64,000 bases of DNA, from assembly GCF_000013385.1 (NCBI RefSeq), contig NC_007760.1:2233001-2297000 (forward strand), in the 5' to 3' direction. This DNA is from Anaeromyxobacter dehalogenans 2CP-C (GTDB lineage Bacteria > Myxococcota > Myxococcia > Myxococcales > Anaeromyxobacteraceae). Shown piece by piece: positions 3,444 to 34,599 of this stretch. Numbering within the stretch: the stretch's first letter is position 1; each line of letters begins with the position of its first letter. Position numbers and translations under genes: made by a program. The notes beneath the pieces were generated by a model. That model did not search any database and was not told the origin of the DNA. It saw nothing but the letters and a program-made list of their open reading frames with translations.

Positions 3444-3872
3444 ATGGCCAACACGTTCAAGGGCGGCAGCGCGGTGCAGAGCGGTTACTACCTCAACCTC
3501 TCCCGGTGGGCGATCGAGCCGGTCGCGAAGGACGGCGAGCGCCTCCCGCAGGGCAAGGGCGAGTGGCGGCGGATCCCGGTGGCGCTGGCGCTGGTCCTCA
3601 CCCCGGTGCTCGGCGCGACGTTCCTGATGTTCATGCCGGTCATCGGCTTCGTGCTGCTGGCGCAGGCGGTGGCGATGCGCGCGGTCCGCACCTTCCGCGG
3701 CCCCGCCGAGGAGCTGGCCGCGACCATGAGCCCCGGCTGGCAGCCCGGAGAGGCGCACTTCACCGGCAAGTCCACCGAGAACGGGGGCGTCGAGGAGAAG
3801 GGGCCCACGGCCGGCGACGAGAAGCTCGAGGCGCTCGAGAAGGAGATCGAGGCGAAGCGGCGCCAGAGCTGA
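3444..3872 (+). CDS. Small membrane protein of unknown function, paralog 1
   Basis: 142 residues, no recognised family. The order is a polar N-terminus with [14 protein letters not shown], a strongly hydrophobic stretch at about 45-77 long enough for one long or two short membrane spans (containing [10 protein letters not shown]), the motif [13 protein letters not shown] at 97-109, and a charged C-terminal helix rich in Glu and Lys. An AAAGGAG ribosome site sits just upstream. The next gene encodes a clear paralog with the same layout, so the pair arose by tandem duplication and is probably one transcription unit closed by the terminator after it. The WAxE segment and the PGEAHFTGK motif are candidates for functional sites; no role can be inferred. 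Confidence 0.85.
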
Positions 3873-3928: not shown

Positions 3929-4348
3929 ATGGCCAAGTACACGGGCGGAGCGAACGTGAAGGGCGGCTACTACTGGAACCCGAAGGCGTGGGCGGTCGAG
4001 GTGGTCCCGTCGGAGGGCGGGCGCCTCCCTGGCAGCGGCGCGCGGTTCGTGAAGGTGCCGTTCCCGCTGCTCCTGGTGATCGTGCCGGTGCTCGGGGCGC
4101 TGTTCCTGATGTTCATGCCGGTGATCGGGTTCGCGCTGCTGGTCCACGCGGTGGTGAAGAAGGTCACCGGCGGCGTGAAGGAGGGCGCGGCCGACCTCGC
4201 CGCCACGGTCCACCCCGGGTGGCGGCCGGGCGAGGCGCACTTCACCGGCAAGCCCGGTGAGGAGGAGGAGAAGGCGCCGGGCGCCGCGCCGACGAAGGAG
4301 CTGAAGGCGCTCGAGGACGAGATCGCCCGCAAGCGCGGCGACGAGTAG
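3929..4348 (+). CDS. Small membrane protein of unknown function, paralog 2
   Basis: 139 residues, clearly homologous to its upstream neighbour: matching N-terminus (GYYWNPKAWAVEVV), hydrophobic core at about 44-76 including [23 protein letters not shown] at 96-108 and a Glu/Lys-rich C-terminal helix. The ATG is preceded by GGAAGGAGACGGTC, a good ribosome site. The gap between the paralogs is 56 bases and a strong terminator follows, so they are likely co-transcribed. The most conserved parts are the second half of the hydrophobic segment and the PGEAHFTGK motif, which would face the same side of the membrane in both. Function unknown. Confidence 0.85.
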   Translation: MAKYTGGANVKGGYYWNPKAWAVEVVPSEGGRLPGSGARFVKVPFPLLLVIVPVLGALFLMFMPVIGFALLVHAVVKKVTGGVKEGAADLAATVHPGWRPGEAHFTGKPGEEEEKAPGAAPTKELKALEDEIARKRGDE

Positions 4349-7879: not shown

Positions 7880-8868
7880 ATCACGAAGAACAGCAGGGCC
7901 GTCAGGGTGAGGGCCGCCAGCGCGACCCGCGCCGCGCCGAACGGCAGCCGCGGCGCGGGCGGCTGGAGCAGCCGCCTGCAGCGCAGCTCGATGTCGCGCG
8001 ACCGCACGCGCGCGAGCGGCTCCGACAGCGCCGCGGCGAGCGGCAGCGTCCGGCGCACCGGCGGCGGCCCGGCGGTGGCGCGGTGCAGCTTGAGCAGGCC
8101 GCTGGCGAGCGCGAGCCGGTCCCCGCACGCCTCGGCGGCGTGCTCGTCCGCGAGCCACTCGGCGTCGCGGGCCAGCGCGCGAGAGACCACCTGGAACGCC
8201 GGGTTGAAGCCCATGGCGACCCGCGCCAGCAGCACCACCCAGCTCGCGGCCGGATCGCGCCGGGCGAGGTGGGCCAGCTCGTGGGCCAGCGCCGCGCGCA
8301 GCTCGGCCGCGTCGAGCAGGCGGAGCGCGCCGCGAGAGAGCACCACCGCCGGCCGCCGGATGCCGGTGCAGAACAGGACGGGCGCGCCGCGCTCCACCCA
8401 GACCAGCGCCGGCGCGCGGGTGCCGAGCCGCGTGGCCAGCTCGGCCAGCGTGGCGCCGAGCCGCGCCGCCGTCTCGGGATCCGGCGCCGCGCGCTCGGGC
8501 GGGCGCGCGCGCCGCCGGCGGCACAGGAACGGCACCAGGTCCATCAGCAGCAGCGCCAGCCCGATGGCCGCGAGGCCGCCGACGAACCACTGGAACATCC
8601 CGGTCCCGAACAGCCGCACGTCCGCCCAGCGGCGGCCGACGAGCAGCGCGCCGCCCTCGCGGAACGCGTCGCCGGCCCGCACCGGGAACAGCAGCACCAG
8701 CGCCGGAAACAGGACCAGCGGATAGCCCAGGGCGGTGAGCCGCAGGGCGATCCGCTGGCCGGGGTCGCGCACTCGCCAGGTCCGCACCAGCGCCTCCACG
8801 TACAGCGAGGCGACCAGGGTGTGGAAGATGGCCTGCGCGAGGACGTCAGCCCACGTGGCGCTCGTCAT
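7876..8868 (-). CDS. M56/BlaR1-like (M48 clan) membrane metallopeptidase
   Basis: 330 residues with several membrane spans (about 10-30, 45-65, 90-115 and the extreme C-terminus) flanking a cytoplasmic zinc-protease domain. The zinc site is HELAH (in RAALAHELAHLARRD), with the third-ligand region DAEWLADEHAA and the intervening GFNPAFQVVSR, which together look more like BlaR1/M56 peptidases than HtpX. The ATG at 8868 lies within the last 23 bases of the cytochrome b gene and the stop overlaps the next gene. BlaR1-type proteases cleave regulators after a signal; here the partner could be the DUF4367-like protein or the two-component system, an arrangement I do not recognise from known respiratory operons. 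Confidence 0.88.
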   Translation of the reverse strand: MTSATWADVLAQAIFHTLVASLYVEALVRTWRVRDPGQRIALRLTALGYPLVLFPALVLLFPVRAGDAFREGGALLVGRRWADVRLFGTGMFQWFVGGLAAIGLALLLMDLVPFLCRRRRARPPERAAPDPETAARLGATLAELATRLGTRAPALVWVERGAPVLFCTGIRRPAVVLSRGALRLLDAAELRAALAHELAHLARRDPAASWVVLLARVAMGFNPAFQVVSRALARDAEWLADEHAAEACGDRLALASGLLKLHRATAGPPPVRRTLPLAAALSEPLARVRSRDIELRCRRLLQPPAPRLPFGAARVALAALTLTALLFFVI

Positions 8869-9571
8869 GCGACGAGGCGTGGCCGCCGTGCTCCGCGGGC
8901 GGCGCCCGCCCCTCGATCCGCGCCAGCTCGAGCGGGTGCTCGTGCTCGTAGCGCTCGCGGCTGACCTTGCCGGTGAACATCGACGTGTCGAACGGGAACA
9001 CGTCGGGGCTCAGGTGCGCGTTGAACACGTGCCAGATGGTGATCACCAGGAACGCCATCAGGCCCTCGTTCGAGTGGGCCACCTTGGCGGCGGGGATCAC
9101 CTCGCCCGGCAGCAGCGACGCGACGGTCACCGGGAAGAACAGGATGAAGCCGGTGAGCACCATGATGACGTTGCCGAACACCAGGCCCCAGTACTCGAAC
9201 TTCTCCTTGTACGTGTACCGATCGTACATCGGGTGCTTGTCGGTCACGCCCAGGTAGTACTTGAGCTGGAGGATGGCGTCCTCGAAGTCCTTCTTCGACG
9301 GCACCATCGTGAAGCCGATCTTCTTCGAGAGCATCGCGGCGATCGCGTTCGCGAAGTGGATCACCGTGGACGCCGCCAGGATCAGGCCGCACACGCGGTG
9401 GACCCAGCGCGCCACGTCGATGCCGCCGAACACGCCGACCACCGCCTGCGACCAGCCGGCCGTGTAGAACTTCTGCGGCAGGCCGGTGAGGCACAGCAGC
9501 ACGAACACGAGCATCGTGATGAAGTGCTCGATCCGCTGCTGCAGGTTGAAGCGGACGATGTAAGCGCTCAT
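8846..9571 (-). CDS. Cytochrome b561-type membrane subunit (FdnI/HydC-like)
   Basis: 241 residues with four hydrophobic spans and His residues at the membrane positions expected to bind two b haems (QQRIEHF, HRVCGLILAASTVIHF, IWHVFNAH). Such subunits exchange electrons between menaquinone and periplasmic c haems. The start codon overlaps the stop of the nine-haem cytochrome gene (ATGA), and together the two resemble the halves of Geobacter CbcL-type menaquinol oxidoreductases, here as separate proteins. The C-terminal tail is His-rich (HGGHASSHDERH). Direction of electron flow is not shown by the sequence. Confidence 0.9.
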   Translation of the reverse strand: MSAYIVRFNLQQRIEHFITMLVFVLLCLTGLPQKFYTAGWSQAVVGVFGGIDVARWVHRVCGLILAASTVIHFANAIAAMLSKKIGFTMVPSKKDFEDAILQLKYYLGVTDKHPMYDRYTYKEKFEYWGLVFGNVIMVLTGFILFFPVTVASLLPGEVIPAAKVAHSNEGLMAFLVITIWHVFNAHLSPDVFPFDTSMFTGKVSRERYEHEHPLELARIEGRAPPAEHGGHASSHDERHVG

Positions 9572-10608
9572 CGGTTCACCACCACGCGCCAGAGGTGCAG
9601 CGCGATCTGGAGCACGAGCCCGCCCACCATGAACGGGATCAGCATCTTGTAGAAGACCTGCACGCCCCACACGAGCGGCGCCTTCTGCGGCGTGGGCTCG
9701 TAGTGCGAGAGCCAGGCCTTCGGGAAGCTCGCGCTGGCGCCCTGGTGGCACTTCGCGCAGGTCTTCTGCAGGTTGGCGGCCATGACCGTGGACGACGGGT
9801 CCTTGGAGGACTGGATGTCGTGGACGCCGTGGCAGTCGGTGCACACCGCGGCGAGGCGCGCGTCCGGCGCGTTCTTCTGCTTGCGCTGGAGCGTGGCGGC
9901 CATGCCGTGGAAGTCGGAGAGGTAGGTGGACACCACCTTGCTCGAGAGGCCGTACTTCGACATCAGCTTCTCGTCGGTGTGGCAGCGGCCGCAGATCTCC
10001 GGGGTGCGCATGGCGAGCTGGCCGTCGCGCGGGTCGGTGGTGTCGTGGGCGCGGTGGCAGTCGGTGCACACCGGCACGTCGGGGCTGCTCTCCGCCGCGC
10101 GGCCGTGCACGCTCTTCGCGTAGACGTCCGCCTCCTCCGCGTGGCAGCCCGAGCACATCTTCGAGATGCGGGTGCGCGGCTGGCCGGGCCGGGAGATGTC
10201 GTGGGCGCCGTGGCAGTCCACGCAGAGCGCGGCCTTGTCGTTGCCCTTGGCCATCACCGCGTAGTGAACGCCGTCCAGCGTCTTGGTGTAGTTCGCGAAG
10301 TGGCAGCCCTTGCACTGCTCGTAGTAGGCGCGGGTCACGTCGCGGCGGGTCTTGAACTTCAGCTCGCCGGTGGCGTGGTCGCTCGTCTTGTCGGTGTGGC
10401 ACTCCGTGCAGCGGAGCGCCTCGCCGTGGACCGACTTCGCGAACGCGTCCTGGTCCACGTACAGCGAGAGCTTCTCGCCGCTCGGGAGGTCGAAGGTCTG
10501 GCTCGGGTCGCTGTGACAGCCGAGGCAGTCCTCCTGCTCGGCCGGGATACCCGCCCAGGCTGGGTTCGCGGCGAACGCGAGGAGGAGGGGCAACAGGCGT
10601 CGGATCAT
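9568..10608 (-). CDS. Nine-haem c-type cytochrome, membrane-anchored
   Basis: 346 residues from the ATG at 10608, chosen because it begins a clean signal peptide (MIRRLLPLLLAFAANPAWAG); a TTG at 10638 is in frame but less likely. Nine CxxCH motifs are visible: CLGCH, CTECH, CKGCH, CVDCH, CSGCH, CTDCH, CGRCH, CTDCH and CAKCH. Many additional His can act as distal ligands (GVHY, GAHD, SVHG, RAHD, DFHG, GVHD). A C-terminal helix (about 322-342) anchors it outside the inner membrane beside its cytochrome b partner. It heads an operon of six overlapping genes and probably relays electrons between the quinone pool and periplasmic acceptors. Confidence 0.95.
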   Translation of the reverse strand: MIRRLLPLLLAFAANPAWAGIPAEQEDCLGCHSDPSQTFDLPSGEKLSLYVDQDAFAKSVHGEALRCTECHTDKTSDHATGELKFKTRRDVTRAYYEQCKGCHFANYTKTLDGVHYAVMAKGNDKAALCVDCHGAHDISRPGQPRTRISKMCSGCHAEEADVYAKSVHGRAAESSPDVPVCTDCHRAHDTTDPRDGQLAMRTPEICGRCHTDEKLMSKYGLSSKVVSTYLSDFHGMAATLQRKQKNAPDARLAAVCTDCHGVHDIQSSKDPSSTVMAANLQKTCAKCHQGASASFPKAWLSHYEPTPQKAPLVWGVQVFYKMLIPFMVGGLVLQIALHLWRVVVNR

Positions 10609-11146
10609 TTGCACACCCTGGAGGAGTCGGTGCGTCAATCCGTGACAGCCACGGATTGCGCCACTTCCTACCAGGGGGCGGCGGGATTGTCCAACGCCTC
10701 CCGCGGCTTAAGCACGCGTGAACTCAGTGCGAATTGCGCGATCGCGACCCGCCGCGCAAGAATCGCGGGCTTCGCACACCTCCCCCGCGCCGCGCGCAAT
10801 GGCCGCCGATTCTGCGTCGCGGCCGGGGAGGATTGATGCGCGTCAAATGGGTCCGCGCCGCCTCCCCCGGATTCCCTGCGCCCGATTGCGCACCCTTCCC
10901 CGCGCCCCCTGCGCGCCCGCGCGCACGCCGCGCACAATGTCCCGGATTGCAGCGGGATGGCCGGGCCGATCGGCGCGGCCGCGGCGCGTGCCGCGGCCGC
11001 CGGGATCGCGAGGGCGCGCGCCGGCCGGGCGGCGGGGACCCATGCGGCCGCGCGCCGCACCTGGTCCCCGGACCGCTCGCGCCCGCGCGCGCCCGCGAAA
11101 GTCGTGCGGGGAGTGGCCGATTGCCGCACCGGCGCGGCGCGGCCGC
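10609..11146. other. Intergenic region upstream of the cytochrome bc operon
   Basis: About 540 bases between the end of the GcvH-like gene and the start of the nine-haem cytochrome. The part at 10,620-10,760 is less GC-rich and carries the inverted repeat, so it is the likely promoter region of the operon. The rest (10,760-11,140) shows only G/C-rich low-complexity sequence with no supportable gene. Confidence 0.6.
10636..10658. promoter_or_regulatory. Perfect 9-bp inverted repeat (candidate operator) before the cytochrome bc operon
   Basis: CAATCCGTG and CACGGATTG are exact complements separated by 5 bases. The repeat ends 28 bases upstream of the cytochrome start codon. The spacing suits a dimeric regulator, such as the LuxR-type regulator encoded at the end of the same operon, or an RNA hairpin in the leader. 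Confidence 0.5.
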
Positions 11147-11851
11147 TCACGGCCGCAGGAACGACTGCGTCAGCGCCGACCATCCCTCCTCGCCCACCAG
11201 CCACGGCGCGGGCGCGACCAGCGTCCCCCCGTCGGCCGCGGCGAAGCCGAGCTGGTGCTCGACGAACTGGTTCCAGCGCTGCGCCTCGCGCCGCATCCAC
11301 GACTCCGCGGCGCCCGCGCGCGGCATCGACGCGTAGGCCTCGTCCGCCGGCGCGAGCGCGACCAGCCAGCCGCGCCCGTAGCCCTCGCGCTTCACCAGCG
11401 CGGGGTCGCGCACCACCGAGACGTTCAGGCCCACCACCGTGCCGTCCACCGGCGCAGGGATCTCCAGCGCGCGCCCGCCGCCGTGCAGCGTGGCGATGGT
11501 GTCGCCGCGGGCCACGCGCGTGCCCGGCCGCGCCAGGTCCACCGCGGTGACCGCCGGCATCAGGCGCTGCGCGATGCCGTCGAGCCCGAGCTCCACCGCG
11601 CGCCCGCCCGGGCGGCGGTGCAGCCAGACGTGGCCGGGCGCGTAGAACAGGTCCGGGCGGAACGGCACGCCGTCCACGTCGCGGATCCCGAGCGCGCGCT
11701 CGCGCCGCTCGGCGCGCCCGCGGACCACCAGCGCGATGAGCAGCGCCGGGACCACGATGACCGCCACCATCGCCAGGAACAGGCCGAACCGGGCCAGGAT
11801 GCCGAGGGTGAAGACGCCGATCGACTGGAGGATCTCGAGAACGCTCTGCAT
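11147..11851 (-). CDS. Membrane-anchored GcvH-like (lipoyl-fold) protein 2
   Basis: 234 residues. An N-terminal membrane helix (about 12-44) is followed by a glycine-cleavage H-protein-like domain: FYAPGHVWLHRRPGGRAVELGLDG, the hairpin RALEIPAPVDGTVVGLN and the C-terminal GRGWLVAL. At the place where true H proteins carry the lipoylated Lys, this one has Gly/Arg, so it probably cannot be lipoylated there. It therefore should not act in glycine cleavage; no gcvP or gcvT is nearby. It is the last gene of the HybAB-like respiratory cluster and may be a structural subunit. GGGAGGA provides a ribosome site. Its role in the complex is inference. Confidence 0.85.
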   Translation of the reverse strand: MQSVLEILQSIGVFTLGILARFGLFLAMVAVIVVPALLIALVVRGRAERRERALGIRDVDGVPFRPDLFYAPGHVWLHRRPGGRAVELGLDGIAQRLMPAVTAVDLARPGTRVARGDTIATLHGGGRALEIPAPVDGTVVGLNVSVVRDPALVKREGYGRGWLVALAPADEAYASMPRAGAAESWMRREAQRWNQFVEHQLGFAAADGGTLVAPAPWLVGEEGWSALTQSFLRP

Positions 11852-11906
11852 GGCTTCCTCCCGACTGCGAGCCCGCGCCCGTCACCGGGCGCCCTCATCC
11901 GCGCCT

Positions 11907-11943
11907 GCGGTCCCCGGCCCGGAGCGAGTGGGCCGGGGACCGC
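11907..11943 (-). terminator. Very stable intra-operon hairpin between c7 cytochrome and GcvH-like 2
   Basis: GCGGTCCCCGGCCC pairs perfectly over 14 bp with GGGCCGGGGACCGC around a 9-base loop. No U-run follows on the leftward transcript, so partial termination or protection of the upstream mRNA end seems more likely than full termination. Confidence 0.6.
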
Positions 11944-11956
11944 CGACGCGCCCCCC

Positions 11957-12295
11957 TCACTGCGCGTGGCACATGGTGCAGTCGTCGAACCCGAACGCCT
12001 GCTTGCCGTGGCACGCCCCGCACGCCTCGCCCTTCTCCATCGCGGCGTGCGTGACCGCCTCCTTCTTCGCCTTGGCCGAGCGGCCCAGGATCGCGAACCG
12101 GCGCGGGTGGCAGGACACGCAGTCCGGCTTGGCCGAGTCCACGTGGCTGTCGTGCCGGAACGTCACCTGGCCCGGGCTTTCGCCGCCCTGCGGGAGCGGG
12201 AGCTCCGGAGGCAGGTTGGGAAGGTCGCCCGCCAGCGCGCTGCCGCCCAGCAGCAGCCCGGCCAGCGCACCGCACCACGAGAGCTTGAGCGTCAT
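11957..12295 (-). CDS. Triheme c7-type periplasmic cytochrome
   Basis: 112 residues with a signal peptide (cleavage likely after GGSALA) and three haem motifs: CVSCH at 59-63, CGACH at 92-96 and CTMCH at 106-110. His48, His51 (RHDSHVD) and His83 are available as distal ligands, as in cytochrome c7/c3 folds. It sits between the two GcvH-like genes in the HybAB-like cluster, so it probably carries electrons between the membrane complex and other periplasmic cytochromes. The ATG is preceded by GGAG about ten bases upstream. Confidence 0.93.
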   Translation of the reverse strand: MTLKLSWCGALAGLLLGGSALAGDLPNLPPELPLPQGGESPGQVTFRHDSHVDSAKPDCVSCHPRRFAILGRSAKAKKEAVTHAAMEKGEACGACHGKQAFGFDDCTMCHAQ

Positions 12296-12312
12296 GGCTG
12301 TGGTCTCCGTTC

Positions 12313-13023
12313 TCAGGTCAGGAAGAAGGTGCGGGCCATCTCGTCCCAGTCGTCGCCGGCCAGGGCGCGGCCGATGCCGTGGATGGGGACGCCGCCGTCC
12401 TGCAGCACGCGGCCGAGCTCGGGGCTCATCCGCATGGCGAGGCGCTCGGACGCGTCCTCCAGGAACCGGTTCGCGGCGCTGTCGGCGAAGAGCTGGCGGA
12501 GGTTCGCGGCGAGGCGGGGCGCCTTCACCTTGAACAGCCAGCCGGCGCCGTACGGATCCTCGACGCCGTCGGGGCGCTCGCGCGCCGCCGCGTTCACCGC
12601 CACCACGGTCCCGTCGATGGGCGAGAGCATCGGGACGCTCTTCTCGCCGTCGCCGAGCTCGAGCGCCGGCTCGCCCTGCGCCACCTTCGCGCCGACGCTC
12701 GGCAGCTCGACCCGGGCCGGCCCCACCAGCTTGTGGGCGAAGTCGTCCACGCCCACCGCCACCAGGCCGTCGGACTCCAGCCGCGCCCAGGTGTGGCCGG
12801 GGTGCAGGTGGACGCCGGCGGGGACCTGGAACCAGCCGGCCACCGCGGGCCGGGCCGCGACCGGGTGGGCCGCGGGGACGGGGGCGGGGGCGCGGACCTC
12901 GGCCGCCGCCGGCTTGCCGCCCTGGACGTACCGCCAGAACGGGATGAACATCAGCAGGTAGGCGATCCCGAGGCCGTACTCGAGGAGCTTGGCCGGGTAC
13001 ACGGAGAGCAGGTCGTAGGCCAT
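12313..13023 (-). CDS. Membrane-anchored GcvH-like (lipoyl-fold) protein 1
   Basis: 236 residues starting at an ATG with AAGGAGG upstream. It has an N-terminal membrane helix (about 12-34), an Ala/Pro linker, then an H-protein-like domain: VHLHPGHTWARLESDGLVAV, the hairpin GEKSVPMLSPIDGTVVAVN and YGAGWLFKVK. A Lys is present in the hairpin but one residue away from the usual lipoyl position relative to the following SPxxG, so modification is uncertain. A helical C-terminal extension of about 65 residues is absent from normal H proteins. It lies between the HybB-like gene and the c7 cytochrome, hence is a likely accessory subunit of that electron-transfer complex rather than a glycine cleavage protein. 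Confidence 0.87.
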   Translation of the reverse strand: MAYDLLSVYPAKLLEYGLGIAYLLMFIPFWRYVQGGKPAAAEVRAPAPVPAAHPVAARPAVAGWFQVPAGVHLHPGHTWARLESDGLVAVGVDDFAHKLVGPARVELPSVGAKVAQGEPALELGDGEKSVPMLSPIDGTVVAVNAAARERPDGVEDPYGAGWLFKVKAPRLAANLRQLFADSAANRFLEDASERLAMRMSPELGRVLQDGGVPIHGIGRALAGDDWDEMARTFFLT

Positions 13024-13039
13024 GGCTTCCTCCTTTCTT

Positions 13040-14251
13040 TCAGTGCTCCGCGGGGAACGCGGGGTCCCCACGCAGGATGGGCATGCGGTTGACGATCCAG
13101 CGGTAGGCCAGCACGCCGATGGTGACGAGCGTGATGGACACCCAGATCTCCATCCAGCTCGGCACGTACCGGTCCACCCGGTTCCAGTTGAAGGCGATGA
13201 CCGAGATGTTGAGGCGGTTCAGCACCACCCCGAGGACGCCGACCACCGAGGCCGCGCGGATGAGCTTCACCTTGCGGTTGCGCGCGCCGTAGGCGAACAC
13301 CAGCGAGGGCAGCAGCACGAAGCCGACCACCTCGACCAGCCACCAGGCGCCGTAGCCGGTGGCCAGGTAGCCCCAGCTGTGCCCGTCCACCAGGCTCTGC
13401 AGCTTGAGGAAGAAGTAGGCGAACATCACCACCGCGGCCGCCTTCCCGAGGCCGATGGTCAGCTTGTCCACGTCCACGTGGTGGTCGGCCCGGCTCTGGA
13501 AGATCCGGTGCGAGAGCGCGCTCTCGAAGATCACCATGTTGAGGCCGGCGATGATCGCGCTGACGAAGAAGAACACGAAGATGTAGGGCGTGTACCAGAG
13601 CGGGTGGAGCTTGGTCGGCGCGAGCAGGAACAGCGACCCGAGCGCCGACTGGTGCATGGTCGAGAAGATGACCGAGAGCACCGTGAGCGCGATGAGCGCC
13701 TTCTTCATCACCGAGTGGATGCGCTTCCAGCCGAGCCACTCGAACAGCGGCACGGTGAACTCGAGCAGGAGGACGGTCGTGTAGCACATGACGCACCACG
13801 CGACCTCGAACAGCACCGAGGCGGTCCCGAAGTTGAAGAGCGCCATGATGATGTTCCAGGGGCGGCCCAGGTCGGCGAGCAGGCCGATGACCGCCATCAC
13901 GTAGCCGAGGAAGGCGGTGAGGATCGCGGGGCGCTCGATGCCGTGGTAGTCCTTCAGCCCGAACAGCTGCACCGCCGAGCCGATGGTGAAGCCGCCGGCG
14001 GCGAGCACGATGCCGGTCATCATGTCGAAGCCGATCCAGAGGCCCCACGGCGCCGACTGCGACAGGTTGGTGGTGGCGCCCAGGCCGGCCGCGAAGCGGT
14101 AGACGAGCAGCGGGACGCCGATGATGAGGATGAACGTCGCGACGGCGTTCGTCGGCGTGAGCAGCGAGCGGAGGTACTCCTTCCAGCTCATGCCCAGCAG
14201 GATCTTCTCCCGGACGAACGAGTGCTGGGCGACCGCGGTGGCGTTAGCCAT
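13040..14251 (-). CDS. HybB/NrfD-family quinone-interacting membrane subunit
   Basis: 403 residues with about ten hydrophobic spans, resembling HybB, the cytochrome-free quinone-binding subunit of hydrogenase-2 and related complexes. Characteristic stretches are WGLWIGFDMMTGI near the N-terminus, the polar GLADLGRPWN segment and FSTMHQSALGSL. It transfers electrons between the partner iron-sulfur protein and menaquinone. Its ATG overlaps the last 8 bases of the HybA-like gene, the usual pairing. There is no hydrogenase large or small subunit gene in the window, so the electron donor is something other than a locally encoded hydrogenase. Confidence 0.92.
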   Translation of the reverse strand: MANATAVAQHSFVREKILLGMSWKEYLRSLLTPTNAVATFILIIGVPLLVYRFAAGLGATTNLSQSAPWGLWIGFDMMTGIVLAAGGFTIGSAVQLFGLKDYHGIERPAILTAFLGYVMAVIGLLADLGRPWNIIMALFNFGTASVLFEVAWCVMCYTTVLLLEFTVPLFEWLGWKRIHSVMKKALIALTVLSVIFSTMHQSALGSLFLLAPTKLHPLWYTPYIFVFFFVSAIIAGLNMVIFESALSHRIFQSRADHHVDVDKLTIGLGKAAAVVMFAYFFLKLQSLVDGHSWGYLATGYGAWWLVEVVGFVLLPSLVFAYGARNRKVKLIRAASVVGVLGVVLNRLNISVIAFNWNRVDRYVPSWMEIWVSITLVTIGVLAYRWIVNRMPILRGDPAFPAEH

Positions 14252-15140
14252 GGTGATCCTCCTTCCCCTGCGCCGACTCGGCGTCCTTGATCTCCTCGCG
14301 CCGGTTCGAGAACGCGTAGATGCCCATCAGCAGCGGCGGCCAGAGCGTCATCACGAACGGCGGCACCGAGAGCGCGCCGGAGGCGAGGTCGGGGATGGGC
14401 CGCTCGGGGACGTCGGTCCGGAACGCGAGCTGCTCCAGGTCCACGTCGGTGATGTACAGCCAGCTCGTCCCGCCGGCCTCGCGCTCGCCGTACACGTGGT
14501 GCAGGTAGCGGTCGGGGTTGGTGTAGATGCGGGTCTTGGCGACCTCGAGGAGCTCGCTGCGCTTCCCGAAGGTCAGCGCGCCCGAGGGGCACACCTCGGT
14601 GCACGCCGGCTTGAGGCCCTTCGCCTGCCGCTCGGCGCAGAAGTTACACTTGCGCACGCGCGGCGCGTTCGAGCCGTACTCGTACTTCGGCACGTCGAAC
14701 GGGCAGGCGATCATGCAGTACCGGCAGCCCATGCAGCGGTTCGGGTTGTAGACCACCGGCCCCTCGGGCGACTTGGTCATCGCCTTCACGGGGCAGGCCG
14801 AGGCGCAGGCCGGCGCCAGGCAGTGCATGCACTGCTTCTTCGCGAAGCGCTCGACCCCGGGCGCCTTCTCGGTGCGGTTCACCACCGTGAAGGCCTGCTC
14901 GTGCGTGTCGCGCTTCTCGTCGAAGACGTTCGCGTCCTCGGGGGGCGGCGCGAGGTGGTTGGCCTCGGCGCACGCCGCCTCGCACGCGCGGCAGCCGACG
15001 CAGAGCGTCGTATCGACGAGCACGCCTGGCCCGTCCTCCGCCGCCCCGTGCGCCGCTGCGGCGGCGGTGGCCGCCGACGCGCCAGCGGCCCCCACCGTCA
15101 CTGCCGCGATCTTGAAGAACCCTCTGCGTCCGATCTTCAT
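14244..15140 (-). CDS. HybA-like Tat-exported ferredoxin with four [4Fe-4S] clusters
   Basis: 298 residues. A twin-arginine signal (GRRGFFK near the N-terminus) directs export of the folded protein. Four Cys groups follow: CVGCRACEAAC, CMHCLAPACASACP, CMGCRYCMIACP and CNFC...CTEVCP. A C-terminal membrane helix (about 262-280, PPFVMTLWPPLLMGIYAF) anchors it outside the membrane, as in HybA. It should pass electrons between periplasmic c-type cytochromes and the HybB-like quinone subunit encoded next. The gene lies directly after the 25-residue microprotein gene in the sigma-54-driven operon. Confidence 0.94.
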   Translation of the reverse strand: MKIGRRGFFKIAAVTVGAAGASAATAAAAAHGAAEDGPGVLVDTTLCVGCRACEAACAEANHLAPPPEDANVFDEKRDTHEQAFTVVNRTEKAPGVERFAKKQCMHCLAPACASACPVKAMTKSPEGPVVYNPNRCMGCRYCMIACPFDVPKYEYGSNAPRVRKCNFCAERQAKGLKPACTEVCPSGALTFGKRSELLEVAKTRIYTNPDRYLHHVYGEREAGGTSWLYITDVDLEQLAFRTDVPERPIPDLASGALSVPPFVMTLWPPLLMGIYAFSNRREEIKDAESAQGKEDHHG

Positions 15141-15162
15141 GGTTGTCTCCGCGCGGGTGCGG

Positions 15163-15240
15163 TCAGCCGTGCGCCGCGACGAGGTTCATGGTCCCGAGCA
15201 CCGCAACTCCGACCACCATCACGACGAATGCGAACATCAT
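15163..15240 (-). CDS. 25-residue single-span membrane microprotein
   Basis: The frame runs MMFAFVVMVVGVAVLGTMNL followed by VAAHG, almost entirely one hydrophobic helix. AAAGGAG lies upstream and the ATG overlaps the TGA of the preceding Cys-protein gene (ATGA), strong signs that it is translated. The next gene, the HybA-like subunit, starts 22 bases downstream. Tiny one-helix proteins often stabilise multi-subunit respiratory complexes (CydX and KdpF are known cases), so an assembly or stability role in the HybAB-like complex is the best guess. Length and position are directly visible; the role is inferred. Confidence 0.72.
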   Translation of the reverse strand: MMFAFVVMVVGVAVLGTMNLVAAHG

Positions 15241-15455
15241 GGCGTCGCTCCTTTGGGCCCTGCGGGTGAGGGATGGGAGTCCGCGTCGGCCGACCGTTCG
15301 GCTCGCTCGAGCGCCTCGCGGAAGAGCGGGCAGGTCTTGAACGCCTCGCCTTCGCAGGTGCTCGCCGTGGTGACCCGGTCGATCGGCACGAGCTTCTTCA
15401 CCGGGTAGGCCCGGCAGAACACCATCGAGACCTCTTTCAAGTACGGGCAGGTCAT
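15237..15455 (-). CDS. Small four-cysteine protein, first gene of the sigma-54 operon
   Basis: 72 residues, cytoplasmic, with Cys at 3, 14, 34 and 42 in the pattern MTCPYLKEV...FC...STC...TCPLF. Four Cys with such spacing could bind a metal ion or an iron-sulfur cluster. A GGGAGG ribosome site precedes the ATG, which lies about 30 bases downstream of the sigma-54 -12 element. The last bases overlap the microprotein start. I do not recognise a named family; it may be a maturation or redox-sensing factor for the HybAB-like complex. Another small Cys protein at 34363-34599 also contains CPLF but otherwise differs. Confidence 0.8.
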   Translation of the reverse strand: MTCPYLKEVSMVFCRAYPVKKLVPIDRVTTASTCEGEAFKTCPLFREALERAERSADADSHPSPAGPKGATP

Positions 15456-15910
15456 CTGTCGCCGTCCTCCCGCGGATCCCTATGGCAAGGGGCGCGCCAG
15501 CCGGGGCGCGGCGGCGCGCGCGAGTGAAGACCGGCGTGTTCACGGTGGGTTACGCTCCGGGTGCGGCGTGCGCCCGCGCGCGGCGCGGGGCCCGGCGCTG
15601 TCGAGATCCTCAGCGCCCCTTCACCGGGGCGGGGTGCGACCGCCCGTGATCACGCGAGCTTGCGGCCGCGGCGGCGCCGGTGGAGAGAACCTCGACGGTG
15701 CGGAGGAACTCGACGTGGCAGCCGGTCGCAGGCGGCGCGAGGCGGACGGCCGGGCGCGGCAGGAGCGCGCGGCTCGTTCACGCTCGGTCACTTCACGCAC
15801 GGCGAACGCGGCGCCGCGCCGCCTGCGCCCCGGGGCGCAGGCGGGCCGGCGGGCCGGCGGGTTCGGTGGATGGCACCGGGCGCGCGGGGGCGCGCAGCCC
15901 GGGCGCGCGG
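15456..15910. other. Regulatory region between the NtrC-type activator and the respiratory operon
   Basis: 455 bases without a supportable gene. It holds the sigma-54 promoter (15485-15499). Candidate activator sites upstream of it are a GTGAA-N10-TTCAC inverted repeat (15524-15543) and a CGTGATCACG palindrome near 15645. The rest is G/C-rich with only low-complexity reading frames. Confidence 0.6.
15485..15499 (-). promoter_or_regulatory. Sigma-54 (RpoN) promoter
   Basis: On the minus strand TGGCGC-N5-TTGC matches the -24/-12 consensus TGGCAC-N5-TTGC with one mismatch and the exact GG-to-GC spacing. Transcription would start near 15473, just ahead of the Cys-protein gene's ribosome site. 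The gene upstream encodes a sigma-54-dependent activator, which makes the call stronger. Confidence 0.72.
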
Positions 15911-17301
<1,391 letters not shown>

Positions 17302-17302
<1 letters not shown>

Positions 17303-17844
17303 CACCTGGGACCTCCGGTCTGCAGCTCCTCGAGCCTGCGTCGGCACTCGGAGCAGAGCTCCGGCTTCTTCTCGTCCACGTTGCGGACGCCGGACGAGCG
17401 CGCCATCACGCACACCGGCGTCGCGCAGTGCAGCAGGCCGAACGCGTGCCCGACCTCGTGCACCGCCTCCTTGGCGAGCCGCTCCAGCAGCAGCTGCGGC
17501 CCGATCAGCTCCACGTCCTCCAGCAGGCGCGCGATGGAGACCACCGCCGCGCCGCCCCCGAGCTGCCCCTCCCCGAACACGTAGGTGAGGATGGGGATGA
17601 ACAGGTCGCGGTCGGTCACCCCGAGCACCTTCCCTGCGCCCGGCCCGGCCTCCAGCAGCCACTTCAGGATCGCGCCGGAGAGGTGCTGCTTGCGCTTCGG
17701 GTCGTACGCGTGGCGCGGGCGCTCCGGCGAGCTCCACTCCCGCACCGGCCGCCCGAAGGCGCGGCCCAGGTGCAGCGCGGCATGGTCCAGCAACGCCCGG
17801 TCGGGCGCCGCCTCGCCGATCCACCAGATGAAGATCGGGTCCAT
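17302..17844 (-). CDS. Archaemetzincin-type zinc peptidase (M54)
   Basis: 180 residues. The family signature is intact: HEVGHAFGLLHC, a zinc-binding HExxHxxGxxH-type motif, followed by CVM, then a Lys/Glu-rich stretch and CSEC, giving the four-Cys second metal site typical of archaemetzincins. It has no signal peptide, so it is probably cytoplasmic. The gene sits between a haem-binding kinase and the NtrC-type regulator, 68 bases after the first and overlapping the second by one base. Natural substrates of bacterial archaemetzincins are poorly known; here the position suggests trimming or turnover of a protein in this signalling or respiratory system, which is inference. Confidence 0.92.
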
Positions 17845-17912: not shown

Positions 17913-19667
17913 TCACTCCGCCGCCTTCCGGGGCGGCAGCCGGATGGCGACCCGCGTCCCCTTCCCCACCTCGCTGTGGATCTCGATCTTGCCGTGGTGG
18001 CGCTCGACGATGCCGTACACCACCGAGAGCCCGAGCCCGGTGCCGCGCTCCTTGGTGGTGAAGAAGGGGTCGAAGATCTTGGACAGGTGGGCGGGCGCGA
18101 TGCCCGGCCCGGTGTCGGTGAACGCGACCTCGACCCAGCGGCCGCCCTCCACCAGCGCCGACTCCACCGTGAGCTTCCCGCCGCGCGCCATCGCCTCGCA
18201 GGCGTTCATGATCACGTTCACGCAGGCCTGCCGGAGCTGCCCGAAGTCGCCCTCCACCGGCGGCAGCGGCACCAGCCGCTTCTCCAGCGTGACGTTCTGG
18301 ATGTTGATCTGGTTGGAGAGCAGCTGGACGCCCTCCTCCACCACCGCGTCCAGGTCCACGTCCTTGAGGGTGAGCGGCCGCTCGCGCGCGAAGTCGAGCA
18401 GGTTGCGCACGATCGCGCTGCAGCGCTCGGTCTCGCGCTGGACGAGGAGCAGGTGCTTCACCAGCGTCTTGCGCGTGGCGTCGTCGGGCACGCCCTGGTC
18501 CAGCGTGCGGACGATGAGCTTCGCGAAGGTGAGGATCCCGGCGAGCGGGTTGTTGATCTCGTGCGCGATCGACGCGGACAGCTTGCCCAGCGAGGAGAGC
18601 TTCTCGGAGCGGACCAGCTGGTCCTGCGCGGCCCGGAGCGCGGCGGTCCGCTCCAGCACCTGCTGCTCGAGGCTCGACATGAGCGCGTCGAGGTCGCGGC
18701 GCGCCGACCGCAGCGAGCGCGTCATGTCGTTGAAGGACGCGGCCAGCAGCCCCAGCTCGCCGCTCCAGGTGATCGGCACCTCGAGCTCCAGCTGCTCGCG
18801 CGCGACGCGCCGGGTGGCCTGCACCAGCGCCGCGATGGGCCGCATCAGGTGGTGGCGGGTGAACAGCCAGGCGAACAGGCCGAGCAGGAACGAGGCGAGC
18901 GCGGCCGCGGCCAGGGTGCGCCACCGGAAGGTGTGGGTCTGCGCGTCGAGGCGCGCGAGCGAGACGTCCAGGTCGATGACGCCAAGCACCTCCTTCGCGG
19001 CGGGGTGCGCGTGGCAGGCGCCGGTGGAGCAGGACGCCTCGTTGTAGACCGGGGTCATGATCCCCAGCACGCGGTGGTCGCCGGAGCGGAACACGCGGCT
19101 CCGCTCCTCCAGCTCCAGCTTGCGCAGCGGCTGGCCCGCCGCGTGGCAGCCGGAGCAGGCCTCCGCGTCGCGGTCCACCATCAGGCCCACCTCCTCCGGC
19201 ACGGTGGAGAAGGTGACGCGCCCGTTCGCGTCCATCATGCGGACGCGCTCGATCCCGGCCTGCCGCGCCACGTCCTGCATGATGAGGTAGGCGTCGCCGC
19301 GGCGGTCCTGCAGCATGGCGCGGTGGAGCGCGTTGCGGACCGTCTGGCTGAGGAGGTCCGACTCCTGCACCACCTGGCCGAGCAGGTGCCGCTGCACCGC
19401 GATCTCCGCCAGGAAGAACAGGCCAACGGTGGCGAGCGCCACCGCCCCGATCATCGCGAACAGCTTGGTGGAGAGCCGCTGCTGCCAGGGGATCTCCAGG
19501 CCGAGCGCGCCGAGCGACGCGGGCGCGATGGCCCGGGCGAGGCGCTCCAGCGCCCGGTCCTCCTCCGCCGTGCGGCCGTTCTCCTGGGTACGCGCCGCGG
19601 GCTCCGCCGGCGGGGGCGGGTCGGGGGCCGGGGAGATCCCGGGCGAGGTTCCTGGCGATGCGCTCAC
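17913..19667 (-). CDS. Sensor histidine kinase with two c-type haem motifs
   Basis: 584 residues from a GTG. A Pro/Ala-rich cytoplasmic head of about 60 residues is followed by a membrane helix (about 68-89). The extracytoplasmic sensor carries CSGCH at 171-175 and an unusual CSTGACH at 213-219 (CX4CH spacing). A second helix (about 252-270), HAMP, HisKA with His369 in AHEINNPL and an ATPase domain (NVIMNACEA, DTGPGIAP, GTGLGLSVV) complete it. It should sense redox potential or a ligand in the periplasm and phosphorylate the NtrC-type regulator. The start is uncertain: the ribosome site is weak and the head could begin later. Confidence 0.93.
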   Translation of the reverse strand: MSASPGTSPGISPAPDPPPPAEPAARTQENGRTAEEDRALERLARAIAPASLGALGLEIPWQQRLSTKLFAMIGAVALATVGLFFLAEIAVQRHLLGQVVQESDLLSQTVRNALHRAMLQDRRGDAYLIMQDVARQAGIERVRMMDANGRVTFSTVPEEVGLMVDRDAEACSGCHAAGQPLRKLELEERSRVFRSGDHRVLGIMTPVYNEASCSTGACHAHPAAKEVLGVIDLDVSLARLDAQTHTFRWRTLAAAALASFLLGLFAWLFTRHHLMRPIAALVQATRRVAREQLELEVPITWSGELGLLAASFNDMTRSLRSARRDLDALMSSLEQQVLERTAALRAAQDQLVRSEKLSSLGKLSASIAHEINNPLAGILTFAKLIVRTLDQGVPDDATRKTLVKHLLLVQRETERCSAIVRNLLDFARERPLTLKDVDLDAVVEEGVQLLSNQINIQNVTLEKRLVPLPPVEGDFGQLRQACVNVIMNACEAMARGGKLTVESALVEGGRWVEVAFTDTGPGIAPAHLSKIFDPFFTTKERGTGLGLSVVYGIVERHHGKIEIHSEVGKGTRVAIRLPPRKAAE

Positions 19668-34362: not shown

Positions 34363-34599
34363 CTAGTGAGCCTGCCCGCCGCCGCGGCGGTCGTTCGCGA
34401 AGCTCCCCGCGAACGCGCGCGGCTCCTCCTGCACCCGGAACAGCGGGCACTTCTCGCAGGACCAGCTGTCCCAGTCGAGCTTCACCGCGACGTCGAGGCA
34501 CGCGTCGTAGTGGAAGCAGTACAGGTTCCGGTGGCCGGAGACCGTGGTCTCGGAGCGGATGAGCGCGGCGAGCGGGGTCGGATTGGGCTGGGTGTGCAC
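34363..34599 (-). CDS. Small Cys-rich protein of unknown function
   Basis: 78 residues from a GTG with GGGAG upstream. The central stretch YCFHYDACLDVAVKLDWDSW is followed by SCEKCPLF, giving four Cys that could hold a metal. The tail is basic and disordered-looking (NDRRGGGQAH). I do not recognise a family name. The CPLF ending recalls the four-Cys protein at 15237-15455, but the remainder does not align obviously. It is isolated between an M2 peptidase gene and a divergent HIT gene. Coding status rests on the well-ordered Cys pattern and normal codon bias. Confidence 0.65.
   Translation of the reverse strand: MHTQPNPTPLAALIRSETTVSGHRNLYCFHYDACLDVAVKLDWDSWSCEKCPLFRVQEEPRAFAGSFANDRRGGGQAH

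Follow-up and report, generated by a model that had tools for sequence, protein, structure and literature searches.

Lysine-less GcvH-fold domains in an Hmc-like respiratory locus of Anaeromyxobacter dehalogenans and their linkage to two-component systems

Respiratory complexes of the NrfD family are widespread, and we know of no mechanism by which they are switched from their cytoplasmic side. One of the best matches for the locus studied here is the Hmc complex of Desulfovibrio (HmcABCDEF), in which, according to the accessible part of one source, HmcD is a hydrophobic peptide, HmcE a cytochrome b related to NarI and HmcF an iron-sulfur protein of the cytoplasm (PMC10924467). GcvH-type proteins have also been recruited to a redox system as LbpA, in which, according to the accessible part of its description, the lysine is strictly conserved among 95 proteins and two cysteines are conserved except in some archaeal ones (PMC6067878). 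We analysed a 64,000-nt stretch of the Anaeromyxobacter dehalogenans 2CP-C genome (the window, to which all unprefixed coordinates refer) and in it a minus-strand operon at 11147–15455. An earlier note, made from the sequence alone, had read this operon as a quinone oxidoreductase with HybA/HybB-like subunits, a triheme c7 cytochrome and two membrane-tethered GcvH-like proteins (here GH1 and GH2), and all of these components were recovered by Pfam. We propose, with a probability of roughly 0.45, that the operon encodes an Hmc-like module whose GcvH domains are non-lipoylated, lie in the cytoplasm and serve in docking or regulation, and which is tied to a two-component system. The genes of the operon, in order, are as follows.

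15237–15455, minus strand: small 4-Cys protein (MTCPYLKEV..C...C....CPLF, from its translation), first gene of the operon
14244–15140, minus strand: HmcB/HybA-like ferredoxin with a Tat-type signal (RRGFFK); Pfam Fer4_11, 8.4e-22, and NCBIfam
13040–14251, minus strand: HmcC/HybB-like (NrfD) quinone-interacting membrane subunit; Pfam NrfD, 1.9e-19, and NCBIfam
12313–13023, minus strand: GH1, an HmcD-like transmembrane (TM) anchor, a lysine-less GcvH-fold domain and a C-terminal helical extension
11957–12295, minus strand: triheme c7-type cytochrome with a signal peptide; Pfam Cytochrome_C7, 6.9e-12
11147–11851, minus strand: GH2, a TM anchor, a lysine-less GcvH-fold domain and a C-terminal extension

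Pfam GCV_H matched both GH1 (8e-19) and GH2 (2.4e-16). Their AlphaFold models, with a mean predicted local distance difference test score of 83 and 92, respectively, both matched GcvH crystal structures, the TM-scores by target length to the Escherichia coli H-protein being 0.88–0.89 with root-mean-square deviations of 1.4–1.9 Å, and sequence identities to the E. coli structures were 35% for GH1 and 31% for GH2 over 124–127 columns. On these predictions both domains have the true GcvH (H-protein) fold, as the earlier note had supposed. The NCBIfam gcvH model scored 65.5 bits for GH1 and 46.6 bits for GH2, both far under its cut-off of 115.85.

The lipoyl-lysine column is occupied by Glu in GH1, with Lys at +1, and by Gly in GH2, with Arg at +1, exactly as previously read, and Lys is absent from this column in 123 of 128 distinct domains of the family. 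Since the +1 position is Arg or Lys in 53 of the 71 domains examined, the 'shifted' lysine of GH1 is a largely conserved basic position; the relative L012, 96% identical, and a solo paralogue of the same genome have Arg there, and the lysine was therefore rejected as a modified residue. The translations of GH1 and GH2 contain no cysteine and no cofactor motif. The genome is a single contig of 5,013,479 bases, in which genes resembling gcvT-gcvH-gcvPA-gcvPB, with a lysine-bearing GcvH, were found at 1.44 Mb, 0.8 Mb from the window locus at 2.245 Mb, in line with the earlier statement that no glycine cleavage genes are near. We infer that the GH1 and GH2 domains are non-lipoylated. A solo paralogue of each type is present elsewhere in the genome as well (L008:7067-7756, GH2 type; L009:6810-7556, GH1 type), neither of them near HmcBC or kinase genes.

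In classical Hmc operons a one-helix peptide of 40–45 residues directly follows HmcC. A hidden Markov model (HMM) built from nine such free HmcD peptides matched six of eight GH1-type proteins at 17.7–33.5 bits (17.7 for GH1 of the window), where the best of 1300 control sequences with shuffled N-termini reached 6.4 bits; the two proteins missed (the first copy in L122, and L132) are anchored copies that are not directly behind HmcC. An NCBIfam scan of the first 50 residues of GH1 for an HmcD model returned nothing, so the homology rests on the HMM built in this analysis. By this sequence comparison, GH1 is the Hmc subunit HmcD with an added GcvH domain. Its start is most likely at 13023 rather than at the GTG at 13071, as its relatives and a paralogue begin at 13023.

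Lys and Arg residues were more frequent after the TM helix (15 residues counted) than before it in 21 of 22 GH1 and 22 of 24 GH2 sequences, with summed counts of 59 versus 3 and 96 versus 21, respectively. This charge bias places the GcvH domains in the cytoplasm and is opposite to that of periplasmic domains, which were rejected. HmcB and the c7 cytochrome are periplasmic by their Tat-type signal and signal peptide, and both GcvH domains are probably on the other, cytoplasmic side of the membrane from these iron-sulfur and heme subunits. Direct redox coupling through cytoplasmic domains without cysteine is unlikely. Thus, of the suggestion that the lipoyl fold had been reused as a structural or redox-coupling part, reuse beside a quinone oxidoreductase agrees with the fold, the absent lysine and the genetic linkage, while redox coupling is not supported.

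The best NCBIfam models for the ferredoxin and the NrfD subunit were HmcB (350 bits, equivalog cut-off 420) and HmcC (481 bits, cut-off 550), both under cut-off; the HybA/HybB labels given earlier are right for the superfamilies but scored below their cut-offs as well. By CXXCH count the locus contains only 3-heme and 9-heme proteins, and the 16-heme HmcA was not found. An HmcC alignment scan of genome contigs yielded 192 relatives, the best 80 of which were kept as HmcC loci. Among these 80, GcvH-like domains were found in 20, HmcF in 40 and HmcE in 44, and a GcvH-like domain co-occurred with HmcF in none and with HmcE in none. Of the 49 loci in which HmcC is flanked by 4 kb or more on either side, 14 had GcvH-like domains, 29 had HmcF and none had both. 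The 20 GcvH-type loci included records named Myxococcota, Acidobacteriota, Nitrospinota, Planctomycetota, Rokubacteria, Hydrogenedentota and Zixibacteria. Several gene calls were wrong in high-GC loci (L111–L113, L116–L118 and L134), so the counts rest on six-frame HMM searches.

As the 80 loci had been collected via HmcC, loci found via GcvH-like proteins were also added. These were chosen among the best matches rather than comprising all of them and were pooled with the HmcC loci; 10 of the resulting 92 GcvH-like loci were dropped for an identical domain, leaving 82 non-redundant loci with a neighbourhood defined as 8 kb. HmcF was found near none of the 82. A kinase of one particular histidine kinase family, NtrC or a fused receiver was near 54 of them and HmcC near 48, with both signalling genes and HmcC in 42, signalling only in 12, HmcC only in 6 and neither in 22. 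Among the 35 added loci with an extended domain, 25 had a kinase, NtrC or receiver, 21 had HmcC and 8 had neither; domains with fewer than 40 residues after them were tallied separately in this count and were kept in the 82-locus count only if fused to a receiver. None of 24 true-gcvH loci treated alike (20 of them picked out of the search that had also yielded the Acidobacteriota loci, and L303 counted as true) had a kinase, NtrC, receiver or HmcC. Within the best 80 of 192 HmcC loci, a strong NtrC match was found in 17 of the 20 GcvH-type loci versus 2 of the 60 others, these two being L116 and L118, both from Anaeromyxobacteraceae. Two-component proteins are thus the commonest partner of the GcvH domain, present even where HmcBC is absent. 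The complex with two GcvH-like subunits was recognized in the earlier note; this partner, the HmcD nature of the GH1 anchor and the exclusion of HmcE and HmcF were missed.

In addition to neighbouring signalling genes, a receiver domain ahead of the GcvH domain was found in nine proteins at six loci (two each in L085, L285 and L286, and one each in L277, L289 and L291; coordinates L277:7179-8042, L289:4247-5422, L291:7431-8531 and L085:652-2644), with a histidine kinase alongside. The receiver was detected by Pfam in the four that were submitted (both of L085, L277 and L289) and by our own HMM in L285, L286 and L291, the start of one L286 fusion being called inside the receiver. The fusions in L277, L289 and L291 and one of those in L085 have an N-terminal TM helix and retain the receiver Asp site and the K-P-F motif. 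In L277, L289 and L291 the fusion lies beside HmcB, HmcC and a CXXCH-bearing kinase, with no full-length NtrC match in the stretch, and no response regulator was seen next to the kinase other than the one whose output is the GcvH domain. These fusions are, at the sequence level, the strongest hint that the domain may act as an effector on the complex. In many Acidobacteriota genomes (for example those of L277, G292, G245 and G410) a frame of ~376 codons encodes a GcvH-like domain, and the one in L277 is a receiver fusion.

The signalling-only loci include Hdr/NuoEF-type clusters in which the GcvH domain stands behind a NuoG-type ferredoxin domain (by Pfam in L072 and L075, with L074 and L076 looking similar) and, in L071, a cluster that is hydrogenase-like by inspection. 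The same lysine-less GcvH domain is found at L071:6478-8211, L072:8150-9436, L074:8482-9768 and L076:6002-7288, and also in L075. HdrA/CCG-like, NuoE/F-like and TusA/DsrE-looking genes, named by inspection, lie alongside the NuoG fusions.

In the window, the operon is preceded by signalling genes and a protease and followed by two cytochrome genes, listed here from upstream to downstream.

17913–19667, minus strand: histidine kinase (HAMP-HisKA-HATPase) with CXXCH in its N-terminal sensor region
17302–17844, minus strand: archaemetzincin-family protease with a HEVGHAFGLLHC motif
15911–17302, minus strand: NtrC-type sigma-54 response regulator, linked in relatives too
15485–15499, minus strand: sigma-54-type (-24/-12) promoter-like site, 9 of 10 consensus positions
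9568–10614, minus strand: multiheme c cytochrome with nine CXXCH, a conserved downstream neighbour
8846–9571, minus strand: b-type cytochrome (Ni_hydr_CYTB/FdnI-like), by domain matches

The gene block is kept throughout the family and in other phyla, so that the arrangement of the locus is more than chance; an HmcC relative with 98% identity is present in Anaeromyxobacter sp. PSR-1. At 51 non-redundant kinase loci, CXXCH in the kinase and HmcC were both present in 36, both absent in 9 and discordant in 6, the discordant loci including L095 and L259, where the kinase is cut at the stretch edge, and L085 and L266, which are near a contig end. Weaker kinase matches in the same stretches carried CXXCH in 9 of 54 cases. 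The pattern fits a kinase that would act as a sensor reading periplasmic cytochromes.

The sigma-54-type site stands 30–44 bp ahead of the first gene of the operon. Across the window, 26 matches with at most two mismatches were found versus a chance mean of 52.8, and because such matches are not enriched only the position of the site is telling. An equivalent site with 8–10 of 10 consensus positions was found 44–88 bp from the start in nine of ten non-identical relatives from Myxococcota, Acidobacteriota, Nitrospinota and Rokubacteria, L123 being the one without it. The simplest reading of these sequences is that the adjoining NtrC would drive the operon, and transcriptional control by the kinase and NtrC is well supported by linkage and promoter together. 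The gene for the 9-heme cytochrome, which follows a 532-bp gap after the operon, perhaps has its own transcript. Another sigma-54-like site with one mismatch (2919–2933) lies 34 bp before a hemA-like gene (1617–2885) and perhaps co-regulates heme supply. Terminator and sigma-70 scans were uninformative, and Rfam gave no match.

Taken together, electron exchange through HmcB and HmcC would connect the quinone pool with c cytochromes of the periplasm, namely c7 and probably the 9-heme protein. GH1 would fill the HmcD position, its HmcD helix carrying the GcvH-fold domain into the cytoplasm, and GH2 would be a second anchored copy. In loci without HmcE and HmcF, the non-lipoylated GcvH domain may thus form a protein-docking or regulatory part on the cytoplasmic face. 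The kinase would sense the periplasmic redox state via its heme motif, NtrC would fire the sigma-54 promoter, and factors of signalling or assembly would reach the complex at the GcvH domain. In the minimal relatives this last step may be built in, because there the receiver protein is anchored in the membrane and has the GcvH domain as its output half. An analogy is offered by the mitochondrial pyruvate dehydrogenase kinases, which have the same GHKL fold as histidine kinases and dock on a lipoyl domain. Direct control of the complex through the domain is suggested by the receiver fusions, the lack of HmcE and HmcF and the missing cofactor motif. A broader reading, which we hold to be unlikely, is that the lysine-less GcvH domain is a general two-component output or docking domain acting non-transcriptionally on HmcBC and on Hdr/Nuo- or hydrogenase-like complexes, in which case TM-receiver-GcvH would be a minimal form of phosphorylation-controlled respiration and GH1/GH2 its split form.

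Several observations weigh against a docking or regulatory role of the domain. Neither HmcC nor a kinase or regulator was within 8 kb at the 22 loci mentioned above, which include both solo paralogues of this genome. Lys occupies the exact lipoyl column in five of the 128 domains (L122, L123, L180, L274 and L277). On an HmcC tree of 86 rows the GcvH label requires seven changes, three of which are forced by strongly supported branches, and independent-pair (sign) tests found only three usable pairs, too few for significance; the exclusion of HmcE and HmcF is therefore clean but based on few events. In genome G039, GH1 is cut down in frame to a 52-residue anchor with c7 immediately after it, the GH2 domain being kept, and L116 and L118 lack both GH1 and GH2 at the locus, although the L118 genome has GcvH-like proteins elsewhere. 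These losses indicate that the GcvH domain is dispensable to the operon. Finally, transcriptional control is enough to explain the adjoining NtrC gene.

The main rival is a purely structural role, in which the GcvH domains would cap or stabilise the cytoplasmic side of HmcC in the absence of HmcE and HmcF, and the kinase and NtrC would act only on transcription. The HmcD homology and the exclusion of HmcE and HmcF suit such a scaffold, and the conserved sigma-54-type site suffices to account for the kinase and NtrC neighbours. We nevertheless consider it somewhat unlikely, given that 12 of 82 loci, some of them Hdr/Nuo- or hydrogenase-like clusters, have the domain with a kinase or regulator and no HmcC, that the domain is also fused to receivers, and that G039, L116 and L118 manage without it at the locus. 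The domains might instead take the place of HmcF as an electron outlet, by docking a soluble redox partner in the cytoplasm that would let electrons cross to acceptors there. The mutual exclusion with HmcF would agree with such an outlet, as would related domains fused behind NuoG-type 2Fe-2S/4Fe-4S ferredoxin domains, but it is improbable in view of GH1 and GH2 being devoid of cysteine or cofactor motif, of the lack of a conserved soluble redox partner seen in the operon across relatives and of any HmcE match in the GcvH-type loci, and of an HmcC family that, in the accessible part of a review, has no redox cofactor (PMC8076601).

The remaining alternatives keep the domain closer to its origin. 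The domains could be cryptic lipoyl carriers of the LbpA kind, with modification of the shifted Lys or of a Lys present in some copies; in favour are the five domains with Lys at the exact column and the +1 Lys of GH1. Those five lysines, however, follow Gly (G-K) instead of standing in the E-S/T-x-K-A/S context of the true GcvHs examined, the +1 Lys is replaced by Arg in L012 and the solo paralogue, and the window copies lack the Cys pair given for LbpA in the accessible part of its description (PMC6067878), all of which makes such a carrier very improbable; an LbpA-like lipoate carrier was rejected because GH1 and GH2 have neither Lys nor Cys. A place for the proteins in the glycine cleavage system, as ordinary paralogues of its GcvH, has the Pfam GCV_H matches in its favour, but the proteins have membrane anchors and scores far under the gcvH cut-off, the gcv operon elsewhere has its own GcvH, and the missing lysine in practice refutes this reading, which was rejected.

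The archaemetzincin-family protease (157 bits, family cut-off 145) retains its zinc motif, read in translation as HEXXHXXGXXHC, and a member of this family was found within 8 kb of the GcvH-like domain at 41 of the 82 non-redundant loci. Very little is known about the biological importance of archaemetzincins according to the accessible part of one source (PMC3427221), and the present loci give them a recurring bacterial gene context. The small 4-Cys protein had no Pfam or NCBIfam match, and its relatives precede HmcB in Acidobacteriota, Nitrospinota and Rokubacteria. A 4-Cys motif recognized by eye (C-x9-12-YK[LIV]C-x4-[FY]xC-x2-C) precedes the GcvH domain in the same polypeptide in L072, L075, L124, L140 and L180. 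Between HmcB and the 4-Cys gene lies a tiny hydrophobic open reading frame (ORF) of 25 residues (15163–15240), and a further small ORF rich in Cys is at 34363–34599. Two small membrane proteins are encoded at 3444–3872 and 3929–4348, the latter without a Pfam match; relatives recur near GcvH-like loci (L090, L100) and look-alikes were seen in L125 and in L123, which has similar kinase, regulator and cytochrome genes.

The exclusion of HmcE and HmcF by the domain, its linkage to a heme-motif kinase and the receiver fusions mean that direct control of respiration by a two-component system can be tested in Anaeromyxobacter, which is culturable. Among proteins that would receive the annotation 'glycine cleavage system protein H', many are probably unrelated to glycine or lipoate. 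In the open-access literature, outside which most subscription journals lie, we found no paper that describes GcvH domains without the lysine as part of Hmc-like complexes, together with receivers or together with archaemetzincins, and the accessible main text of the review of NrfD-like subunits contains no word beginning with 'glycine' or 'lipo' (PMC8076601).

Compared with known systems, the operon shares with Hmc of Desulfovibrio the HmcB-like and HmcC-like subunits and the HmcD helix in identical order, but is without the 16-heme HmcA, HmcE and HmcF; its HmcD carries a GcvH fold, and it has a second GcvH-like protein, a triheme c7 and kinase, NtrC and archaemetzincin neighbours. HybA and HybB of hydrogenase-2 belong to the same superfamilies of ferredoxin and NrfD-like subunits, but the scores were 240 bits against a cut-off of 263 and 260 against 450, respectively, and no hydrogenase subunits were seen in the operon, on which grounds HybAB of a hydrogenase was rejected. 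GH1 and GH2 have the H-protein fold in common with GcvH (PF01597) and differ from it in the lipoyl Lys, the TM anchor, the C-terminal helical extension (DGG...W...F) and the lack of nearby gcv genes. Among the GcvH-like proteins that NCBIfam separates from gcvH, not_gcvH (TIGR03077) matched weakly with 29–34 bits and GcvH_rel_desulf (NF045810) with 22–31 bits, far under their cut-offs of 144 and 150. LbpA of the sulfur-oxidising Hdr-like system is likewise a GcvH-type protein recruited to a redox system, but its column Lys and Cys pair, as given in the accessible part of its description, are absent from GH1 and GH2. The complex is a variant of the known Hmc type, and the receiver-GcvH output would, if confirmed, be new.

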